Source of the DNA: an uncultured bacterium
GTDB lineage: Bacteria > Cyanobacteriota > Vampirovibrionia > Gastranaerophilales > Gastranaerophilaceae
Length of the DNA stretch: 51,649 nucleotides
Direction of reading: 5' to 3'
NCBI GenBank assembly: GCA_902767275.1
Contig: CACXGY010000016.1
Location: 1-51,649 of the forward strand
The position numbers and the translations under genes are program-made. Numbering within the stretch: the first letter of the stretch is position 1; every line of letters begins with the position of its first letter. The notes under the pieces are model-generated. The model did no database searches. It was not told the origin of the DNA and worked only from the letters and a program-made list of their open reading frames with translations. This document shows positions 12,426 through 48,576 of this stretch, one piece after another.

Positions 12426-13526
12426 TTAACGATTGTTTTTACCATTATTTGCAACTTGATAAAAATTATATGTCGAATTATATTCCTTTTCAGAATCACT
12501 TACGAAGGTAACCGTTGAATCATATATATCATAACCCTTTTTATCAACTACCATTTTACTGTTAGGATAGTGTTTTTGAAGATATTCTTTTCCTCTGGCA
12601 AAATTACGATGAAATTCTTTTGCATCGTTTATTGTCTTATCTAATTCTTTAGAAACACTTTCTTTTGTTGGCGACCACCAATTAGGATTAGTTTCAAGAT
12701 TCGATTCAAGAACACTCATAGCACGTTCCTTAACCTTTTGTGAAACAGAATAACTTTCCAAATAAGACCCTTTAGGATTCCCTAACAATGCACGACTTAT
12801 TTCTTCCTGAACGTAATCTAATCCGGAAGTAGGACGGACTCCGACTTTGTTCATATGCTCCGAGACTTCAGGAATATTAAACAAACCCGATTTACATGCT
12901 TGCATAAGAGTTTTATTGCGTTCTGCTTGTGCAAACATTTCTTCTCCTGAGCCGTTATTCATCAAATATTCAAACATACTATCTGTAGCGATTTCTTTTT
13001 TAGAGGCCATTTCATCCATAAGTTTCATAGCATCTTCCGGCATTAAAACTCCGACTTCATTTATTGATTTAACACTTTGAAGTCCTTTTAATCTGTCTGC
13101 TTCTTCTTGTGCTAATTGCACTTCTTTATCTTTTTTTGCAAGATTCAATGAACCCTCATCGAATCTTTTTTGATATTTTGCTCTTACCTCTTTTTCTTTT
13201 TCCCAAACAGCATTATTGGTTTCGTTTGGAATTGCTCTTGATTGGTCATATAGTTCACGTGTTTTAACATTTTTCTTATCTATATTAGCCCTTAACGTTT
13301 TAATTCTTTCTCCAAATGATTCAACAACATCGGCAAATTTTTCAGAACTTGCACCCATAAATCCTTTTATGGATTTCATAACTTGTTCGGTTTCAACACT
13401 TGAACCGGTAGAAATTTCTTGTAATAATTTTTCTCCGATTGCACCTTTAAATGCAGGTTGTGTATTATTTTTTTGATTATTACATCTGACATTCTGAGTA
13501 TAAGTTGGATTGAAGCCGATATTCAT
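12426..13526 (-). CDS. PAFKG-motif hypothetical protein (paralog 1)
   Basis: 366 aa. The first 23 residues are polar and Asn/Gln-rich (MNIGFNPTYTQNVRCNNQKN), followed by PAFKGAIG at 24-31. A coiled coil of about 60 residues follows (around 100-150, KEVQLAQEEADRLK), then a helical C-terminal domain. That domain contains GVLMPEDAMKLMDEM, DSMFEYLMNNG, LFNIPEVSEHM, LLGNPKGSYLES and a final KGYDIYDSTVTF. The same blocks occur in the neighbour at 13611-14699, so the two are tandem duplicates. No signal peptide and no membrane helix. AAAGAAAGG precedes ATG 13526. Function unknown. Confidence 0.75.
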   Translation of the reverse strand: MNIGFNPTYTQNVRCNNQKNNTQPAFKGAIGEKLLQEISTGSSVETEQVMKSIKGFMGASSEKFADVVESFGERIKTLRANIDKKNVKTRELYDQSRAIPNETNNAVWEKEKEVRAKYQKRFDEGSLNLAKKDKEVQLAQEEADRLKGLQSVKSINEVGVLMPEDAMKLMDEMASKKEIATDSMFEYLMNNGSGEEMFAQAERNKTLMQACKSGLFNIPEVSEHMNKVGVRPTSGLDYVQEEISRALLGNPKGSYLESYSVSQKVKERAMSVLESNLETNPNWWSPTKESVSKELDKTINDAKEFHRNFARGKEYLQKHYPNSKMVVDKKGYDIYDSTVTFVSDSEKEYNSTYNFYQVANNGKNNR

Positions 13527-13610
13527 TTTATAAACCTTTCTTTTTCACACAGTTTCTTAAGTTTTGTCAATATTTCAAATTGACTTAATTTAAAACATTT
13601 TTAACATGTC

Positions 13611-14699
13611 TTAACCATTGTAGCCTACATAATAAGCAAAATTAGAAAGTGACCATTCGTTAAGTTTTTCGCCTTCTTTATTCTTTTCAATTATTACAGA
13701 ATCACTCAAAGAATAACCCTTTCTGTCAATTTCAAACAATGATTGAGGTCTTTTTCTTAACACTTTTTCTTTTGCCAGTCCAAAGTTTTTATGATAATCT
13801 TTAGATTCTTTTATCGCTTTTTCAAGATTTCTTTGTGCATATTCAAAATCCTCTTTATTTTTGCAAAGAGGTTCCACAATCGCAAGGGCATTCGCTGTTA
13901 TTTGTTTATCAAATGATGAACACAAAATATATGATCCCTTCGGATTTCCTTTCAATGCCGTTTCAATCAAATCAATTGTATTATTAATCGGAGTATTTGA
14001 AGCAGCACCTTTACATCCGTATTTTTGCCATTCAAGTCTTACTTCAGGAATATCAAACACTCCGTCACGATAAGTTTTATGTAACTGAGTTCCTTTATTT
14101 AACCAATCTATTGCCTCTGTCGGTTGTTCTCCTGTAAATAAAAACTTAAACATACTATCCGCAGCAGAATCTTTTGTTTCCACCATTGATTTCATTGTTT
14201 CTATTGCCGCATCCGGCATTAAACCTTCTACTTCTTCTGCTGATTTAATTTTAAAACCGTCAAACCCTGCTGAGAACTCTTTTAATTCAGCAATCTTTGC
14301 CTCTTTTTCAGCCATTTGTTTTTCTTGACGTTTAAATCCATTCAAAAATGTGTTTTCCAAACTTTCTTCGGCTTGTTTTATAGAATTTTGTTTCTTTTCT
14401 GTCAAATTTTGAACTTTTTCTTCACCTTCTTTTATAGTTTTGTCAAGATATTTATCTGTTTCTGTTAAACTTTTAACCTTATCAAGCATAGATTCAATTA
14501 CATCTTTTACTTTTTCTCCGTTAAGTCCGAACTTGCCCTTTACTTGTTCAATAATTTTTGAAGGATTAACTTCTGTTCCTTTTTCTATACCTGCAACTAT
14601 CGAATCTCCGATAGCACCCTTAAATGCAGGTTTATTATTTCTGTTATTTGCATTATACAAACTATAATTATTATTCGGAGTAAAAGATACTGTATTCAT
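13611..14699 (-). CDS. PAFKG-motif hypothetical protein (paralog 2)
   Basis: 362 aa. It is built like its downstream neighbour: an Asn-rich N-terminus (MNTVSFTPNNNYSLYNANNR), PAFKGAIG at residues 24-31, a coiled coil around 75-135, then a conserved helical domain. Blocks shared with paralog 1 are GLMPDAAIETMKSM, DSMFKFLF, VFDIPEVRLEW, LKGNPKGSYIL, DYHKNFGLAKE and DRKGYSLSDSVI. GAAGGA lies 6 nt before ATG 14699. The gap to paralog 1 is 84 nt without a terminator, so they may form one transcript. Overall identity is modest, so the duplication is old, yet the N-terminal motif is unchanged in sequence and position. Function unknown. Confidence 0.75.
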   Translation of the reverse strand: MNTVSFTPNNNYSLYNANNRNNKPAFKGAIGDSIVAGIEKGTEVNPSKIIEQVKGKFGLNGEKVKDVIESMLDKVKSLTETDKYLDKTIKEGEEKVQNLTEKKQNSIKQAEESLENTFLNGFKRQEKQMAEKEAKIAELKEFSAGFDGFKIKSAEEVEGLMPDAAIETMKSMVETKDSAADSMFKFLFTGEQPTEAIDWLNKGTQLHKTYRDGVFDIPEVRLEWQKYGCKGAASNTPINNTIDLIETALKGNPKGSYILCSSFDKQITANALAIVEPLCKNKEDFEYAQRNLEKAIKESKDYHKNFGLAKEKVLRKRPQSLFEIDRKGYSLSDSVIIEKNKEGEKLNEWSLSNFAYYVGYNG

Positions 14700-14840: not shown

Positions 14841-15278
14841 TTATGCTTCATCAACTTTAATCTTTGATGGATCCATATTTTTGTTATATGACCAAGCAAC
14901 AATACTTGGAATCAAACCAACACCTTGAATCAATCCGGGAAGGGTCCATAAAGTTTGTTCACGTTTAATTTGTTTAATCAATTTTTTATCTTTTTCTGCA
15001 TCTAAATCATATTTTTTAGCAACAGTCTTATCTGATCTCAGTGCAAAATACAAAAGACTCAATTCTCCGCCGATTATAGACCATCCTGCGGCATCTGTTC
15101 TTGCACTTCTTACAATTTCTTGTTTATCCTCTTTTGTTAATTCTTTACCTTCTTTTTTATGTTGAAATTCTACCGAATCATTAGGGGCTTCTTCTTTTAA
15201 TAAATTCGTGTTCTCAACTTTTTCTGATTTGAAGGTTTGCGGAACCGCATTAATCGATGAAATGTTTCTGATATCCAT
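14841..15278 (-). CDS. small membrane protein, hypothetical
   Basis: 145 aa. The N-terminal half is polar and charged (MDIRNISSINAVPQTFKSEK; the TFKS segment recalls the F-K-G motif of its neighbours). Two hydrophobic segments follow: about residues 73-90 (AAGWSIIGGELSLLYFAL) and about 116-133 (LWTLPGLIQGVGLIPSIVAW), separated by a basic loop. AGGAGG lies 6 nt before ATG 15278, one of the best ribosome sites in the window. It is likely an inner-membrane hairpin protein. No family recognised. Confidence 0.7.
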   Translation of the reverse strand: MDIRNISSINAVPQTFKSEKVENTNLLKEEAPNDSVEFQHKKEGKELTKEDKQEIVRSARTDAAGWSIIGGELSLLYFALRSDKTVAKKYDLDAEKDKKLIKQIKREQTLWTLPGLIQGVGLIPSIVAWSYNKNMDPSKIKVDEA

Positions 15279-20272: not shown

Positions 20273-21853
20273 TTAACTTCCGCTGAATGTCTTGAAGGTC
20301 ATTTCGATATTCTTTGAAATAACTTTCTTTACTGCTTCCATTTCTGTTTGAAGTGCGTTTTGTTCCGTATCTAATTGTTTTAAACGCAATTCAAGTGTTC
20401 TGTCTTCTTTTTGAATAATTTCGGTTTTTGCGTTAATATCCGCAATTTTCTTTTCATAGACTTGAACATCATGGTAGTACTTATTCATTGCATTTTGATA
20501 TGCTTCTTCATCTGTTACTGATTCGACATTAAGAGCATACGCAATACTGTCATCTTCCAGTTTCAAAGAAGTAAATCTTCCTGAACCGTCAGTTTCTAAC
20601 AATGCATAATTCGTATCTTTAATCTTTGTATTAATATATGTAGCATCGTAATATTTTAATTTATTTTGATTTTCAATCGGTTTACCGTACTCATCATAAG
20701 TAGTTAAACTTTCAACTAAATCTTTATAAGTTGTGTATCTTGTATGACCGTTATATTCAAAAGTATAAATACCCGAACCATAGTATTCATAAGTGCCGTC
20801 AGGCATTCTTTTAATATATTGAGAAATATTTTCTTTAGGTAAATCAGCAATAATTTGCATAAGAGCAGTTTCGTCGGTTAAAGACAAAGTATCCACTAAC
20901 TCAGTTAACTTACAATTACCCACAAAAGCCGGTGCATAAACAGTAGAATATTCTGTTAAGCCGCCCGTTCCGTGTTCGTACGCTTCTTCTTTTGTTGAAG
21001 GTTGGAAATCATAATAGGTTTCACCATCAATAACTGTTGTTGTATATGAAGCATATCCGGATGCAAATGCACCGTTTGATAACCCTTGAATTACATCATC
21101 TTTTGAAAGGTTTGACAACCCTTCTTCTGCAAGTCTTGATGTGAATTTTTCAAATTCTTCATTTGTCCATGAAGAAGGATCTGATAAGTCAACACCTAAT
21201 TTGTTAACATCAACATATCCATTTTTTAAGCCGTGGTTTGTTCTTGCATTTTCTAAATCTTCTTTTTTAGCAATATGCCAAACATTTTCTTTATCTTTAT
21301 AACCGAACAAGTCCTTCATATTAATCTTGCCGTTCGGAAATTCAATAAGACCTTCCGCTTCCATGTCTTTTAATGCATTTTCAAGATCTTTTGTATCCTT
21401 ATAACTTGTTAACGGTTTATATGTAATTTCATCATTTAATGTATATGATCCATCAGCATTCTTTCTTAATTTATCAACATCTTCATCAAATTTAGATGCC
21501 TGATTCTTGAATAATACTTCCGGATTAGCCATTTTCTTCATAGCACCTGTATACACATCATCGAAATAATATGTATCAACAACATAGTTATAATCTCTAT
21601 TCGCATTCGATAATTGATGCCAATTTTCAAGAACAGAATCATTATAACCGTCACTGAATGAGTATTGAGTTTTTGTATAATCAGTACTATCAGGACAAGT
21701 CGGTACTTTTGTGTTTAATAACTGGTTGAAGTAATTAGCAGATTGGTTTGCCAAGGCAACACGAGCCTGGTTGATTTGTTGTCCTTCATATTCGCAGTTA
21801 GTTTTTCTTGCTGTTAGTGCCAGATATCTTGCTTGTGATGCTGCCATTCCCAT
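20273..21853 (-). CDS. lineage-type hypothetical protein with AASQARYL N-terminus
   Basis: 526 aa. Residues 1-45 form a regular amphipathic helix: MGMAASQARYLALTARKTNC, then EYEGQQINQARVALANQSAN. The centre is polar and globular-looking with repeated Y-x-Y and Asp-rich turns. It contains a TMKK-type linker and cyclic sequence themes (EYYGSGIYTFEYNGHTRYTT) but no domain I know. The last about 85 residues are a long coiled coil (YEKKIADINAKTEIIQKEDR, then LELRLKQLDTEQNALQTEME) ending KKVISKNIEMTFKTFSGS. Paired helices at both ends, with LANQSANYFN near the start, recall flagellar rod and hook proteins (LANNIAN motif), but this is only a resemblance. No Sec signal peptide. AAAGGAG precedes ATG 21853. 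Single gene. Confidence 0.75.
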   Translation of the reverse strand: MGMAASQARYLALTARKTNCEYEGQQINQARVALANQSANYFNQLLNTKVPTCPDSTDYTKTQYSFSDGYNDSVLENWHQLSNANRDYNYVVDTYYFDDVYTGAMKKMANPEVLFKNQASKFDEDVDKLRKNADGSYTLNDEITYKPLTSYKDTKDLENALKDMEAEGLIEFPNGKINMKDLFGYKDKENVWHIAKKEDLENARTNHGLKNGYVDVNKLGVDLSDPSSWTNEEFEKFTSRLAEEGLSNLSKDDVIQGLSNGAFASGYASYTTTVIDGETYYDFQPSTKEEAYEHGTGGLTEYSTVYAPAFVGNCKLTELVDTLSLTDETALMQIIADLPKENISQYIKRMPDGTYEYYGSGIYTFEYNGHTRYTTYKDLVESLTTYDEYGKPIENQNKLKYYDATYINTKIKDTNYALLETDGSGRFTSLKLEDDSIAYALNVESVTDEEAYQNAMNKYYHDVQVYEKKIADINAKTEIIQKEDRTLELRLKQLDTEQNALQTEMEAVKKVISKNIEMTFKTFSGS

Positions 21854-30042: not shown

Positions 30043-31503
30043 ATGTTTAGCAGAAATTTAGAGTATGTTATAAAAGAAGTATCAACCGATGACAGACAAG
30101 CATTACAAGATTTGCTAAACGAAATGTCTAATGAAGGGTGGGATTTGTATACATTGCACGAAGTTGAAACTGATGAAGACTATGTATACAGTTGTATATT
30201 TATGAGAGAAAAACCTCTTAATGATGACAATGAGGTCTTTGATAAAGTTGTTAATATCAAAAATTTCAAAGCACAAATGGAAAAGATGCTTTCAAACAAT
30301 ATGACTCCTTATGAAACTTGTAAGGATATTATTTCAAAGATTCGTGCTCAAAAAGAAAGAGTTGCAAATATTAAATCTGAAATTGATAAGGTTGATTGGT
30401 CAGACAGAGGAAGGTTAAATGAACAAATGTCTGATGAATTACGCAGATTGGATGATTTGAAGCAAGATTTAGTAAAAGAGATTTCTCCAGGGGTTATGTA
30501 TTCAAGAATAGGAGAGGAAAAGTTTACGGTTAATTTAAGTGATGAATTACTTGAATTTGTGAGCCCTGACAATACTAATGATTTATTATCAGAAACAGTA
30601 AAATCTCGTCAAAAACTTACCGATGAATTAGGGTATGTTATCCCTCGTATGATATTTTGCGATGATGATACACTTTCACCGTATGAATTTAGTATAAAAG
30701 TTCATAATTTAGAAGTTTATAAATCAACTGCTGTTCCTGAACATATTGCATTTTTTAAAGATGAAATTAAATTAAAACGTAAGCCGTCAGGAACAATTGC
30801 TATCAAGGATGAAATTACGGGTAAAGAAATTTGGTGGATTGAATCAGAACAAGCAGAAGATTTTTGGGCTGATGGTTATACACCTGTTGAATTTATTGCA
30901 CGTGCTATTGAGTTTGTGTCTATTAAATATGTATCTGAACTATTGGATTATAGCGATATTAATAGATATGTTACTCTTGTCGAAAAAAGAAATCCTTTTG
31001 TAATAAATAATATTATTCCGGATTTTATTACGCTTGCAGAACTTAAATATATTTTAATAAATTTAATAAGAGAAAAAATTTCTATAAAAGATATTGATTA
31101 TATTTTTGAAAAGATTAATGATTTTTCTGATGAGATGTCAAAAGACGGATTGTTAGACAGAATAAGATTATCTCTCGCAAAACATATATCACAAAGGTTT
31201 GTGACCAAAGAGCCTTCTTATGTAATGGAATTTTCAGGCTCTACTTTAGATGATATGTTTAAATTGACTGAATCAGATGATGATACAATCATAAAAGTTG
31301 ATGGCAAAGTTGCAGAAAAAATTGCTAAACGAATTGAAAAAACAGCAAAAGAGAATAATTTGAATGAAATAATTCTCGTTGTTCCTATGGAAATTCGACA
31401 CATGACATTTGCTATATTCTCAGAATTTATAAACAATTTGACGGTTATTGCACATGAAGAATTATCATGTGATACAAATATTGATGTAATTGAAACAATA
31501 TAA
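30043..31503 (+). CDS. soluble FlhA cytosolic-domain protein with DUF4177-like N-terminus
   Basis: 486 aa, no signal peptide and no membrane helix. Residues 1-60 resemble DUF4177: LEYVIKEVSTDDRQALQDLL, then NEMSNEGWDLYTLHEVETD. A coiled coil follows (about 75-145). From about 150 to the end it reads like the cytosolic half of FlhA. The blocks are LTDELGYVIPRMIF, SPYEFSIKVHNLEVYKS, EIWWIESEQAEDFWADGYTP, VVEK-type linker NPFVINNIIPDFITLAELKY, ILINLIREKISIKDIDYIFE, and LVVPMEIRHMTFAIF before the end. These correspond in order to ELGFVVP, NEYRIKIKGVEVARG, the WI-GY-V block, VPDLLSLGEVQKVLQNLLRE-VSIRDL, and the final LLCSPQIRRY strand of FlhA. Canonical FlhA is about 690 aa with eight membrane helices; these are absent. 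FlhA-C is the docking platform for export chaperones and substrates. AAAGGGA precedes ATG 30043. The role here is unknown. Confidence 0.8.
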   Translation: MFSRNLEYVIKEVSTDDRQALQDLLNEMSNEGWDLYTLHEVETDEDYVYSCIFMREKPLNDDNEVFDKVVNIKNFKAQMEKMLSNNMTPYETCKDIISKIRAQKERVANIKSEIDKVDWSDRGRLNEQMSDELRRLDDLKQDLVKEISPGVMYSRIGEEKFTVNLSDELLEFVSPDNTNDLLSETVKSRQKLTDELGYVIPRMIFCDDDTLSPYEFSIKVHNLEVYKSTAVPEHIAFFKDEIKLKRKPSGTIAIKDEITGKEIWWIESEQAEDFWADGYTPVEFIARAIEFVSIKYVSELLDYSDINRYVTLVEKRNPFVINNIIPDFITLAELKYILINLIREKISIKDIDYIFEKINDFSDEMSKDGLLDRIRLSLAKHISQRFVTKEPSYVMEFSGSTLDDMFKLTESDDDTIIKVDGKVAEKIAKRIEKTAKENNLNEIILVVPMEIRHMTFAIFSEFINNLTVIAHEELSCDTNIDVIETI

Positions 31504-37409: not shown

Positions 37410-38783
37410 TTAAACTTTCTGTTGCGATTGCTCTTTTTCTTTTTCAAGCATTGCTTTTATTTCTTTTTCAACAGCAAACTCTTTGTTGTTAGGTTTAAGT
37501 AATCTGTCTGCAAGCATTATCCCCGGCAAAATAATACCTAATGCAAGAACTGTAGAAGCCATATTCTTTATAACAGAACCTCTCTTGAGTTTTCTTACAC
37601 CTTTGAAAAATTCATCAACTGTTTGTCCTGATTCATTAAACTGTTGATACAACTTTGACATATTTTTATGAGTATTTCTAACCTCATTTAAGTCAATATA
37701 TTTTCTGGTATCAATTTTTCCGCTATCTTTAGATTTTGTAAATATTTGATACCATTTCTTTGGTTCTTTATATGTTTGAATTATATCGGATTGTTTTGCA
37801 ACATCAACAACCATATTCTCAGGATTTTTGTGCAAAAATTCATACAACTCTAAATCACTCTTTGAGGAATCAAAGGCTTTTAAACTTTGTTCAATACTCT
37901 TATTCGCAAATGATTCTTTAAATGCTTCATTTTCTAAAACTCTTGCATCAAGTCCAATATTCTTGTTGTGTTTCGTATCGGCAACTTTTTCAAAATGGTT
38001 TTGAATTTTTTGACCTAAAACATACATAAAGAATAAAAATCCGCCTTCTTTAATAGCATATCCCATAAATTCCTGAGGAGATCTTGATTTACCTAATCTT
38101 TCTGTGGTTATCCCACCGTCAAGCACCATCATATTCTTAACAGGGTCAAGCATAACTCCGTATATACCGTTAAATGATGGAGATTTACCGGAATTGTTTT
38201 TGTTCTCATTTCTTATCTTAGACACATTTTGGAAGTTTAGATCCTTCACAGAATCAGATACTGCATTATTCTGTGACATTTTTTCAATACTTTCTTTTTC
38301 TTGTTGTTTTAACAACTTGGTTTTAATTCTGTTATGAGTATATTTTTGTTTCATATCAGTCATAACATTATACATTCCCAGTGCCATCAATGTTGCGGCA
38401 ACAAACTTTGCAACATTCAAATTTTTAAATGTTTTTTGATTTTTCTTAATCTTTTCAATTGATTTTTGAATTTTTTCTGTTGGAGCATACTCTTTTGTTT
38501 TTTCAAATATATCTTTGTTGTTAAGGTTTCTTACATCATATTTTGCATCAAGTCTTGCAACCTTAAACAATGTATTGTCAACAATTTTTTTAGATAACGG
38601 AATTCCGCCTAACCAAATTGCTTCCGTACCTACTTCATCAATAAATCTATCTCTACCCTCGTCTTTACTTGTGATTGAAGATGCTGCCGTCATGCCCGCA
38701 CAATTAACAGTATCCTTAACTGCCAACGGGACTAATGATTGGGAATTACCCAAAACTGAAAATATTTTTGCTGCTATTACCAT
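37410..38783 (-). CDS. membrane-associated hypothetical protein
   Basis: 457 aa. An N-terminal hydrophobic patch (MVIAAKIFSVLGNSQSLVPL) is followed by a conserved-looking IDEVGTEAIWLGGIPLSKK. One membrane helix lies near 117-133 (NVAKFVAATLMALGMYNV), with another near 420 (NMASTVLALGIILPGIMLA). Between them is a disordered linker with SPSFNGIYGVM (about residue 205), a variant of the F-K-G motif. VLDGGITTERLGKSRSPQEF and KEGGFLFFMYVLGQKIQNHF come next. AGGAAA is only 3 nt from the ATG. A possible 29-aa ORF ends 26 nt upstream. Family unknown to me; topology suggests two inner-membrane passes. Confidence 0.7.
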   Translation of the reverse strand: MVIAAKIFSVLGNSQSLVPLAVKDTVNCAGMTAASSITSKDEGRDRFIDEVGTEAIWLGGIPLSKKIVDNTLFKVARLDAKYDVRNLNNKDIFEKTKEYAPTEKIQKSIEKIKKNQKTFKNLNVAKFVAATLMALGMYNVMTDMKQKYTHNRIKTKLLKQQEKESIEKMSQNNAVSDSVKDLNFQNVSKIRNENKNNSGKSPSFNGIYGVMLDPVKNMMVLDGGITTERLGKSRSPQEFMGYAIKEGGFLFFMYVLGQKIQNHFEKVADTKHNKNIGLDARVLENEAFKESFANKSIEQSLKAFDSSKSDLELYEFLHKNPENMVVDVAKQSDIIQTYKEPKKWYQIFTKSKDSGKIDTRKYIDLNEVRNTHKNMSKLYQQFNESGQTVDEFFKGVRKLKRGSVIKNMASTVLALGIILPGIMLADRLLKPNNKEFAVEKEIKAMLEKEKEQSQQKV

Positions 38784-44801: not shown

Positions 44802-46621
44802 TTTTTAAATAACTGTTTAAACCAACTTAGAAAACTTTTTTTGTTATTTTCACTGTTTACTTCTTTAATATCAGCAATAGGAACAGGTAAATGACCAATT
44901 TCATCAATATAAGATATTAAAACTTTTTGTACATCGGGATTTATATTTTTAATACCATGAGCACGAATATTTCCTGATTTTGTTGAAAGTTTAGAGGTTC
45001 TAAAATTAACATTGTGAAGCATTGATATGTTTACAGCCAATTCATAATTATTATCAGGGGTCATATAAGGGAATATAACACACGATGCAGATTCTGCACC
45101 ATAATTATGAGAACCTATTATATCAGTTATATCTTTGTTTTTTTTATTTAAAGAGAATGCTTTTATATCATTCAAGATAAATAATTTTTGATTTTTACAA
45201 TTTGATTTAGATGAAAATGTTTTTCGTGCCTTTTCTGTCCCTGTAACACACGCAAATATGACTTTTTCCGCTTTTTTACATTTTTTTGATAAAATTTTTG
45301 TACCTAATATATTTCCTATGGAATTTCCTGAAATAGTACAATCATCTAACATTACCACTATTTTATCTTTTGTATCAACACTATCTCTTTCTATATCAAC
45401 TAGTTCATATATTTTATTATCGGGAATATTATTTACTTTTTTATAATTATACATAATATAACTTTGACTTTTTGAATATGTTTTTAACACATCATCCGCT
45501 ATAACATAAATAATATCATCTTCGGTTTTTCCCTCTTTATTTGCTAAATTTAAAAGTTCTGAATGCATTCTTTTTAACTCAGAAGAAAGTCTGTATGGGC
45601 TATAAACATCCAGTGTTGATTTTACAGCATTTACTGCAATATCTTTATTCTTTATGATACTATCGCTTTGTATATTTTCTGAACTTCTTGCCTTTGAATT
45701 TGCTTCTATTAAATTGATGAATTCAGATTTTGTCATTTTTTCAGGAGTAATTTGATTATAAACTCCTAATAAAGAAGGTTCTCCTTCATTTTTAATAACT
45801 ATATAATTTATACCTAAATCATGAATTCTTTTACGTCTAATTGCATCAATTTCTTCTTCAGGTGTACAACAGTTTTTTCTTGCTTTGTTGATTAAAGAAA
45901 TAGTTTCGTCTTCAAGGTTTTTAGTCCTGTCTACAAAAGTTATACCGCTATCCCATCCTGATAACATAAAAAATTTAACTTTTTTATACGAGGTTATCAA
46001 TTTAAACTCATCAGGAGATTTTTCTTTCAATTCTTCTAATTGAGATATTTTTTTGTCATCTAATATAATACCGACATTTGCTTTTTTATATTGGGCAGGT
46101 CTTGGTCGAGAAATTTTTTTACGTTTAAGAGTATAATTTAATAAATCGTGTAATCCAATATCATCATAAACAAAGTTTTTTGCTGTATCACTCAACCAAT
46201 AATTACGGAATTCTGCCGAAAAATATTCAAATCCGTTTCCAATATATTCTACTCCATATTGTTTTAAAGTCTTATCAATAGAATCAAGAGAGCGAATTTC
46301 AGCATATTGAGTTAATTGCTGCATTGTACTTAACACTTCTTTTTTTGAACTATTTGTTGCCTTTGAAACTCTGTCTACACTTGATTTGAATTCTGAGAAC
46401 GGAATTATCCCTAAAGAATTTTTATAATTAATAAACATTTCATCAACTGTAGAAAGTGTTTTTTCTAAAAATTTCCGGTTAGGATTTGCACAAAAAGACT
46501 GACTTGTCATTTTTTGTGATAATTCTATATTATCAGACGAAGATATTTTAATTTTTTTATTATCAGACAAGTTGTTATTTGATTTGTTGATATAGGAAAC
46601 TCTATTATAATTTATTTTCAT
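44798..46621 (-). CDS. phosphoribosyltransferase-like protein, intact paralog
   Basis: About 607 aa from ATG 46621 (in-frame TTG 4 codons upstream not preferred). N-terminal 60 residues are Asn/Ser-rich and probably disordered (MKINYNRVSYINKSNNNLSD). A helical middle region follows, then at about residue 400 the PRPP-loop-like VVMLDDCTISGNSIG, as in type I PRTases (hydrophobic strand, Asp-Asp, Thr, Ser-Gly). Downstream ASCVIFPYMTPDNNYELAVN is a second block shared with the paralog at 46693. No signal peptide. The substrate cannot be told; the fold is also used by non-enzymatic regulators. Confidence 0.65.
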   Translation of the reverse strand: MKINYNRVSYINKSNNNLSDNKKIKISSSDNIELSQKMTSQSFCANPNRKFLEKTLSTVDEMFINYKNSLGIIPFSEFKSSVDRVSKATNSSKKEVLSTMQQLTQYAEIRSLDSIDKTLKQYGVEYIGNGFEYFSAEFRNYWLSDTAKNFVYDDIGLHDLLNYTLKRKKISRPRPAQYKKANVGIILDDKKISQLEELKEKSPDEFKLITSYKKVKFFMLSGWDSGITFVDRTKNLEDETISLINKARKNCCTPEEEIDAIRRKRIHDLGINYIVIKNEGEPSLLGVYNQITPEKMTKSEFINLIEANSKARSSENIQSDSIIKNKDIAVNAVKSTLDVYSPYRLSSELKRMHSELLNLANKEGKTEDDIIYVIADDVLKTYSKSQSYIMYNYKKVNNIPDNKIYELVDIERDSVDTKDKIVVMLDDCTISGNSIGNILGTKILSKKCKKAEKVIFACVTGTEKARKTFSSKSNCKNQKLFILNDIKAFSLNKKNKDITDIIGSHNYGAESASCVIFPYMTPDNNYELAVNISMLHNVNFRTSKLSTKSGNIRAHGIKNINPDVQKVLISYIDEIGHLPVPIADIKEVNSENNKKSFLSWFKQLFKN

Positions 46622-46692: not shown

Positions 46693-48576
46693 TTATTTAT
46701 CACGTTTTTGAAATACCCCAATTACACTATCAATAATTCTTTCAAATCTTGATTTTAGCATCAATTTATTTTTATTTGAAACGTCAAAATCTTCAATTAC
46801 GGGGAGAACCTTTTCTTTTTTATTATCGTATTGTCTTACCATTCTTCGAACTTCGTTAGAGCAATGAGAATGATGTTTTATACCATAATAATTATCTTTT
46901 ATAGCCATTCTGTAAAGAACACTATGCATCAATGCAATATTAGTTGCCAGTTCACTGTTATTATCAGGAGACATATATGGAAATATACAACAATATTGAC
47001 CTTTAGAAAAACCGCTTTTACCGATTATTTGCTCTGTTTGTTTTTTACTAATTTTTTTTGGCATTTTTTCCATACGTTTATCATTTATCATTAATCCTAT
47101 ATGTTTATAATTAAATTTATCAAAATTTTTAGATGCTTTGTCTGAACCATATACACAAGAGAATAATACATAATTGATTTTTGATTGAACTCGAAAAGGA
47201 AATTCTCTTAACACATCATTAACAGTAACGTCTATCGATGTGCCTGATATTGTATTATCATCAAGAAAAACTAATATTTTATCTTTTGAAGAAACTCTTT
47301 CATACTGTATATCAACATCTTTTGCAAATTGCTCCGGCGGAATTTTATTTATTTTCTAATATGAATAATTTATAAAATCATAACTTTTAACTTTATAAGG
47401 AATAACGTACAATATATCTTTCTCGGTCTTGCCTAAATCTTCTGCCATTAATACAATATTTTTATGCATTTCTTTTAAAGAATCACATAATCGTTCAGGT
47501 GTGTATATATTCAGATTATCTTTCAAATAATTTGCAGAAATATCTTTTGCAACAAGGCTGTTCATTACTCTTTCATCAATTCTAACCTGTGCATTTGCAT
47601 CAATAATATTAATCAATTCATCTTTTGTCATTTGCTCAGGTCGCATTGCATTGTATATCCCTTCTTCGGATAATTCGGATTTATTCTTAATAATCTTTGG
47701 AGCAATACCCAGTTGCCTTGCTCTTTCTATAATATTTTCATCTATGACTTCATCTAAGTCCTTACCTGTTTCTTTTGACCGTTTTATAAGAGAGATAGTT
47801 TCTTCTTTAAGATTTTTAGTCCTGTTAAAAATAGATATTCCTTCTTCCATTCCTGATAAAACAAAAAACTTTAAATTAGGACAATTTATTATTGTTTTTA
47901 ATTCTTCAGGATTTTTTTCTTTAAGATTTTCTAACTGAGAAAGTTTTCTCTCATCCAGAAACATTGCAATATTTTTACCCTCTAATTTTGCAAAATTCTT
48001 TTTATCGAGCAGATAAGTAAGTGATTTATTCAAACCAACATCATTTGTGACAGCATCACTAAATATATAAAATTTTTTATTATTGCTATTAATACACTCC
48101 CTTTCTAAGAAATGGTCAAAGTTACCGATAGCCCTAATACCCTCTTGTTCCATAACATTTCCTATATGTCTAACACTTCTCATATTAGCAAATTGGGTCA
48201 ATACCTGCATTGCAGATAGAACTGTTTTCTTATTAGAACCGGTTTCTTTCATTGTATCAACCACTGCTTGGGCAACTTCTTCTTTTGAAACTTCCATTAA
48301 TGATTCGTGATATGATTCGAATAATTTATCAATTGTATCAACTGTTGATTTTAAAAACGGAGTTCGAACAACATTGTTAACACCTTTAAAATTAACATAT
48401 CCTTTTGGGTATGCCTTTAGCGATAAATTACTCCTATCATAATTATTCTTTATTTCAGAGCAATTATGAGAATCTGATAATTTTTGTATTTGAGTTGGTT
48501 GATAAGTACTTAAAATTTTCACACTGAGATAAAACTTATGAACATCATAAATTGCTAAAATATAAAGATTTCTCAT
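46693..48576 (-). pseudogene. phosphoribosyltransferase-like paralog with internal amber stop
   Basis: The frame runs 628 codons with one internal TAG at 47356-47358 (codon 407). On both sides it aligns in the same frame with the intact neighbour. Before the stop are MTKDELINIIDANAQ and GISIFNRTKNLKEETISLI; after it are KINKIPPEQ and the PRPP-loop-like ILVFLDDNTISGTS (codons 434-447), then CCIFPYMSPDNNSELATNIA. In the intact copy the stop position is Lys, so one A-to-T change (AAG to TAG) explains it. The truncated 406-aa product lacks the PRPP loop. The N-terminus carries VNFKGVNN. GTG 48522 is an alternative start that aligns better with the intact paralog. TAG is an ordinary stop elsewhere here (dnaE, gcvT), so recoding is unlikely. 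Confidence 0.75.

Follow-up and report, generated by a model that had tools for sequence, protein, structure and literature searches.

The DNA examined here (the window) is a 51,649-nt stretch of contig CACXGY010000016.1 from an uncultured bacterium of the Gastranaerophilaceae, in Candidatus Gastranaerophilales, an order of gut bacteria with kinship to the cyanobacteria, and the element in question is a short motif centred on F-x-G that lies behind an Asn-rich leader in two neighbouring proteins. The two open reading frames (ORFs) were found on the minus strand at positions 12426-13526 and 13611-14699; both start with ATG and encode proteins of 366 and 362 aa, respectively. In each protein, PAFKGAIG occupies residues 24-31 (codons at 13434-13457 and 14607-14630, both on the minus strand), so that PAFKG stands at the same residues in both, as an initial annotation made from the letters of the sequence had stated. 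The leaders are polar and have no hydrophobic core. The two proteins share 29% identity over their length, indicating that they are ordinary diverged paralogs in tandem. A degenerate DNA pattern for PAFKGAIG matched the 1.81-Mb genome at these two sites only. With related forms recurring in unrelated proteins of the order, the motif is probably a docking or targeting tag of some kind that is shared throughout the lineage.

The family of the pair is rare. One copy each was detected in G007 and G034 among 58 genomes searched, and one homolog (L096) sits in a Candidatus Gastranaerophilales metagenome-assembled genome. The alignment of five homologs revealed that F26, G28, and G31 are invariant, and in homologs the motif reads PSFRG (residues 19-23) or VGFTG (residues 25-29). 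Since the F, the G, and another G located three positions downstream are retained while the leader varies in length and sequence, the exact position of the motif is incidental, as is its identical placing in the two paralogs, which the initial annotation had read as a fixed distance from the start.

An AlphaFold2 model of the 362-aa protein, built with five homologs, showed disorder at residues 1-30 (predicted local distance difference test, pLDDT, 25-40), followed by short helices, a coiled coil at residues 62-140, and a confident domain at approximately residues 150-355. The motif lies within the disordered segment, directly before the first helix and outside the folded domain; thus, a motif inside a folded domain, named beforehand as the outcome that would contradict a tag, was not seen in this prediction. 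A motif at the border between leader and domain, as in the pair, could also mark a processing site at which a protease cuts the leader off at or after F-x-G. This is very improbable, because no protease was identified, the residues following the G vary between families, and the several copies found in a single linker of another family (described below) are unlike a maturation site. Neither protein of the pair gave a match above the cut-off in Pfam, NCBIfam, or PHROGs, and the 362-aa model matched no fold in the PDB at E <= 0.001. The identification of the 362-aa protein as RRF was rejected (E 0.004, below the cut-off, overlapping the helical and coiled-coil stretch). A phage origin of the pair was likewise rejected on the lack of a PHROGs match and on neighbours of an ordinary chromosomal kind, glycine cleavage genes among them.

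The enrichment of the motif was analysed in approximately 2.3 Mb of stretches from six genomes, comprising the genome of the window (G000), two genomes of its family (G013 and G014), one each from two more families in the order (G039 and G045), and an outgroup of the same class (G057, family f8). ORF starts were taken from a simple ORF caller, and a leader was defined by N/S/T/Q-rich residues 2-13. The N-terminal enrichment proposed in the initial annotation was weak when its pattern, [PV]xF[KNQ]G, was counted at residues 9-60 with no leader condition (9 vs 4.0 in shuffled sequences, standard deviation 2.0), but strong among proteins with polar residues 2-13. With this selection and the window left out, F-x-G ranked first of 1456 residue pairs in the polar-leader proteins of five genomes (22 vs 8.4, z of approximately 5.3). 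At a threshold of at least 6 of 12 polar residues, F[KTSNRC]G was found in 15 of 119 such proteins compared with 3.6 after shuffling, a count matched by 0 of 400 shuffles (maximum 9). The 15 proteins represent 13 families. At least one hit, in L160, seems to be a coincidental match to an ordinary protein. The excess of F-x-G was observed in the same-family genomes (14 vs 5.0; 0/400 shuffles) and in the two other families (9 vs 4.1; 3/400 shuffles), but not in the outgroup (1 vs 1.2). Across the five genomes pooled, no clear excess was seen for the control pairs G-x-F, Y-x-G, L-x-G, and I-x-G; the two other families, taken by themselves, showed a mild rise in G-x-F.

Two leader thresholds were tried, and the excess appeared under each. 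F-x-G was not ranked first in two unsupervised pair scans with looser leaders, a de novo expectation-maximization motif search drifted to hydrophobic patterns and did not single it out, and a DNA pattern for an M-x-[IV] leader followed by F-x-G was uninformative in the genome of the window (17 vs 14 in a reversed control). Only the selection on polar residues 2-13 ranked F-x-G first; therefore, the leader rule was settled after exploration, and the enrichment is strong but not pre-registered evidence. The late choice of threshold agrees with the alternative that the motif has no common function, in which the Asn-rich leaders are a habit of the lineage and F-x-G is kept family by family as a cap at the start of a domain. 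So do the weak unconditioned enrichment, the looser scans and de novo search that did not pick out F-x-G, and the position of the motif immediately before the first helix in the pair. We consider this alternative unlikely, since it is at odds with 15 proteins of 13 unrelated families against 3.6 expected, with the excess in two separate genome sets, and with the motif of a 457-aa membrane protein family, which lies within a variable linker and not at a domain edge.

The 457-aa protein is encoded at 37410-38783 on the minus strand and carries PSFNG at residues 202-206 (38166-38180, minus strand). SPSFNG had been reported for this protein and is indeed present; it is an internal copy, with its F at residue 204, and not an N-terminal one. 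It is located in a hypervariable N/K/S-rich linker flanked by hydrophobic segments. The family was found in 40 of 56 genomes, and the motif F was conserved in 29 of 29 homologs and the G in 28 of 29. Most linker columns showed less than 45% identity, the exceptions being one upstream F (86%) and the residue immediately before the motif (62%). In shuffled linkers, F-x-G occurred in 7.6 of 29 sequences on average and in 15 at most (2000 runs). One member (L106) has four successive AFKG/SFKG copies in its linker (residues 182-236) and two further F-K-G outside it. The initial proposal of a short motif behind a low-complexity leader was partly supported: in its favour are the enrichment across unrelated proteins in three bacterial families of the order, with no excess in the outgroup genome, the disorder predicted in one protein, and the near-invariance in the 457-aa linker, whereas the position is not fixed and the motif is not exclusively N-terminal. 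A search confined to one library of papers turned up no account of a motif of this kind in the order.

Two other related forms noticed in the window, VNFKG and TFKS, also exist, although some positions needed correction. VNFKG is encoded at 48382-48396 (minus strand) in an interrupted PRTase-like paralog (47356-48576) and occupies residues 61-65 when numbering begins at the first ATG, or 43-47 when an in-frame GTG is taken as the start. Counted from the GTG, its placing is near that of QSFCA, a variant motif with a polar leader at residues 41-45 of the neighbouring PRTase-CE protein as read from the ATG at 46621 (46487-46501, minus strand). The region 46693-48576 (minus strand) as a whole is a PRTase-like paralog of this PRTase-CE protein (607 aa) and contains a single in-frame stop that interrupts it. 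The 145-aa protein (14841-15278) has TFKS at residues 15-18 as part of QTFKS (residues 14-18; 15225-15239, minus strand), a possible variant of the motif. Elsewhere in the window, a 526-aa protein (20273-21853, minus strand) has an N-terminus that by eye faintly resembles flagellar axial proteins, and it gave no Pfam match (E <= 0.01).

A hand-curated set of 57 leader proteins matched just 14 Pfam families at E <= 1e-4, among them RtcB, poly(A)-polymerase head, GT5-like (starch-synthase-like), M16 peptidase, AAA, M41, HD, GGDEF, PRTase-CE, metallophosphatase, and an AvrB-family domain. Several of these proteins are extra or divergent enzyme copies. One of two RtcB paralogs in G003 (L169 and L172) has a polar leader ending in PNFFG and the other has none; the GT5-like leader protein is distinct from a canonical-scoring copy in the same genome; and an M16 peptidase in G039 has a Sec-like N-terminus, its paralog having a leader instead. 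The AvrB-family protein (283 aa; L078:12301-13149, G000:C11) scored 41.2 bits against a cut-off of 23.2 and carries VNFTA with a polar leader. A defence role was rejected, as the PADLOC matches were single and of a generic AAA, HD, or GGDEF type.

Residues 2-21 of 47 leaders were enriched in N, Q, P, S, and T, with Asn the most enriched, and depleted in L, E, D, and A; Leu stood at 0.4x background, hydrophobic leaders having been filtered out when the wider list was assembled. Roughly one leader in three has Ile as its third residue, and the motif F had a median position of residue 24 and a lower quartile of 17. By hydrophobicity, most leaders have no Sec signal, two proteins of locus L053 excepted.

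A shared tag could also act with no export at all: through a single weak copy of F-x-G or several, it would dock cytosolic, membrane, and pre-secretory proteins in the cytoplasm and bring them together at a common scaffold or place in the cell. Docking accounts better than export for the internal motif of the 457-aa family, including the multiple copies in L106, and for leaders placed before Sec-like signals, and it explains the leaders on common kinds of intracellular enzyme, for example RtcB, HD, and AAA proteins. However, it comes with no receptor candidate, and docking alone leaves the type III-like leader composition and the extra-copy enzymes unexplained; this possibility is somewhat doubtful.

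For export, a candidate machine is encoded in the genomes of the order. Full-length FlhA (PF00771) was detected in 56 of 56 genomes of the order searched, including that of the window. Flagellin was absent from 19 of the 38 genomes tested, and all 19 retain FlhA with scores of about 713-731 bits; a higher-scoring class of FlhA (about 850-890 bits) was seen only in genomes with flagellin (18 of 19). FlhB was present in 20 of 20 genomes. The genome of the window contains FlhA (722 bits; G000:C52:19217-21193), FlhB (370 bits; C31:21619-22644), and two rod-type Flg_bb_rod proteins (C97:11302-11713), and no flagellin was found in it. In G045, the lower-scoring FlhA adjoins FlgE/F/G-, FliE-, and FliF-type genes. 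The motif-negative outgroup belongs to f8, and the genomes listed for that family yielded no FlhA. The gut genome MEL.A1 is without filament and outer-ring genes, which has been interpreted as genome reduction (PMC3787301).

The window itself encodes a solitary FlhA cytoplasmic-domain protein of 486 aa at 30043-31503 on the plus strand (PF00771 positions 323-655, E 1.2e-44), which has an extra N-terminal domain beside the FlhA part. Its model, of modest confidence (pLDDT 65.5; predicted template modelling score, pTM, 0.44), matched the FlhA cytoplasmic domain 6ch2 in Foldseek (E 1e-19). Solitary C-terminal-half FlhA proteins occur in most genomes of the order, many flagellin-less ones included. 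The 30043-31503 protein may be a part of the machine that reads the tag, a link that we infer.

In summary, the motif can be written approximately as [P/V/I/Q]-x-F-[K/T/N/S/R/G/C]-[G/A/S], situated in disordered Asn/Ser/Thr/Gln-rich leaders and less often in linkers, and it would serve as an address tag that a common receptor recognizes in the cytoplasm. The unfolded leader would deliver its protein to a flagellar-type export gate consisting of FlhA, FlhB, and possibly the solitary FlhA domain encoded in the window, and this gate, retained in Gastranaerophilales without flagellin, would send out non-flagellar proteins. Type III export is the leading single mechanism for the tag and is proposed here tentatively. 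It is favoured by the enrichment in 13 families, the disorder, the leader composition, the gate genes kept in flagellin-less genomes, an outgroup that has no motif excess and whose family f8 yielded no FlhA in the genomes listed, the M16 paralog of G039 with a leader in place of a Sec-like signal, and the leaders on an AvrB-family domain and on divergent RtcB and GT5-like copies. That the flagellar export gate has turned into a protein delivery system, with tens of substrates per genome marked by the Asn-rich F-x-G leader, is a more doubtful proposal. The motif, its enrichment and conservation, the predicted disorder of one protein, the leaders on extra or divergent enzyme copies, and the gate genes were observed; one common receptor, its identity, the export, and the destination of the proteins are inferred. 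Most leader proteins are without a known domain, and a shared tag would group them by route or place and not by fold. If type III export is true, it would explain why the gate is kept by the flagellin-less members of this common gut lineage, and it would predict which proteins these bacteria send out.

Several observations weigh against this scheme. In two paralogs of G045 (L053:9848-12346 and 12472-13659), the leader precedes a Sec-like signal, with a lipobox in one of them, and the 457-aa family has its motif at an internal site, with hydrophobic segments on either side; type III export is therefore unproven. Of 117 genomes in the class, 9 have AvrB-like domains, and since an f8 genome is among these, the domains are not bound to the presence of FlhA. 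In G136, which is 99% complete and belongs to the same family as the genome of the window, FlhA was seen in the solitary form only, and G057 was the sole outgroup genome scanned for the motif. Polarity and low acidity were in part the criteria by which the leaders were picked, and their composition therefore does not count as independent evidence. In addition, the position and spacing of the motif do not follow those of the flagellar gate recognition motif.

Among known systems, Sec and extended signal peptides similarly consist of an N-terminal extension on many unrelated proteins, whereas the leaders described here have no hydrophobic core and in two proteins precede a separate Sec-like signal. 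Early flagellar subunits carry a gate recognition motif and an N-terminal hydrophobic signal (PMC8983047), and the leaders resemble them in having a short motif downstream of the N-terminus, which would dock the protein at the export gate, and nonpolar residues near the start, such as the Ile at position 3. However, the motif F, at a median of residue 24 and in a quarter of the leaders at residue 17 or earlier, breaks the position rule of that motif, from which the leader motif is thus distinct. The N-termini of published type III effectors are enriched in S, T, and P and depleted in L, E, D, and A (PMC2669295), and the leader ratios, from a set partly selected by polarity and acidity, agree with these values. 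The leaders here differ from type III signals in that Asn is their most enriched residue, F-x-G recurs, two stand before Sec-like signals, and their export is putative. Like type III N-terminal signals, they form a disordered leader on unrelated proteins, in a genome that has both FlhA and FlhB.
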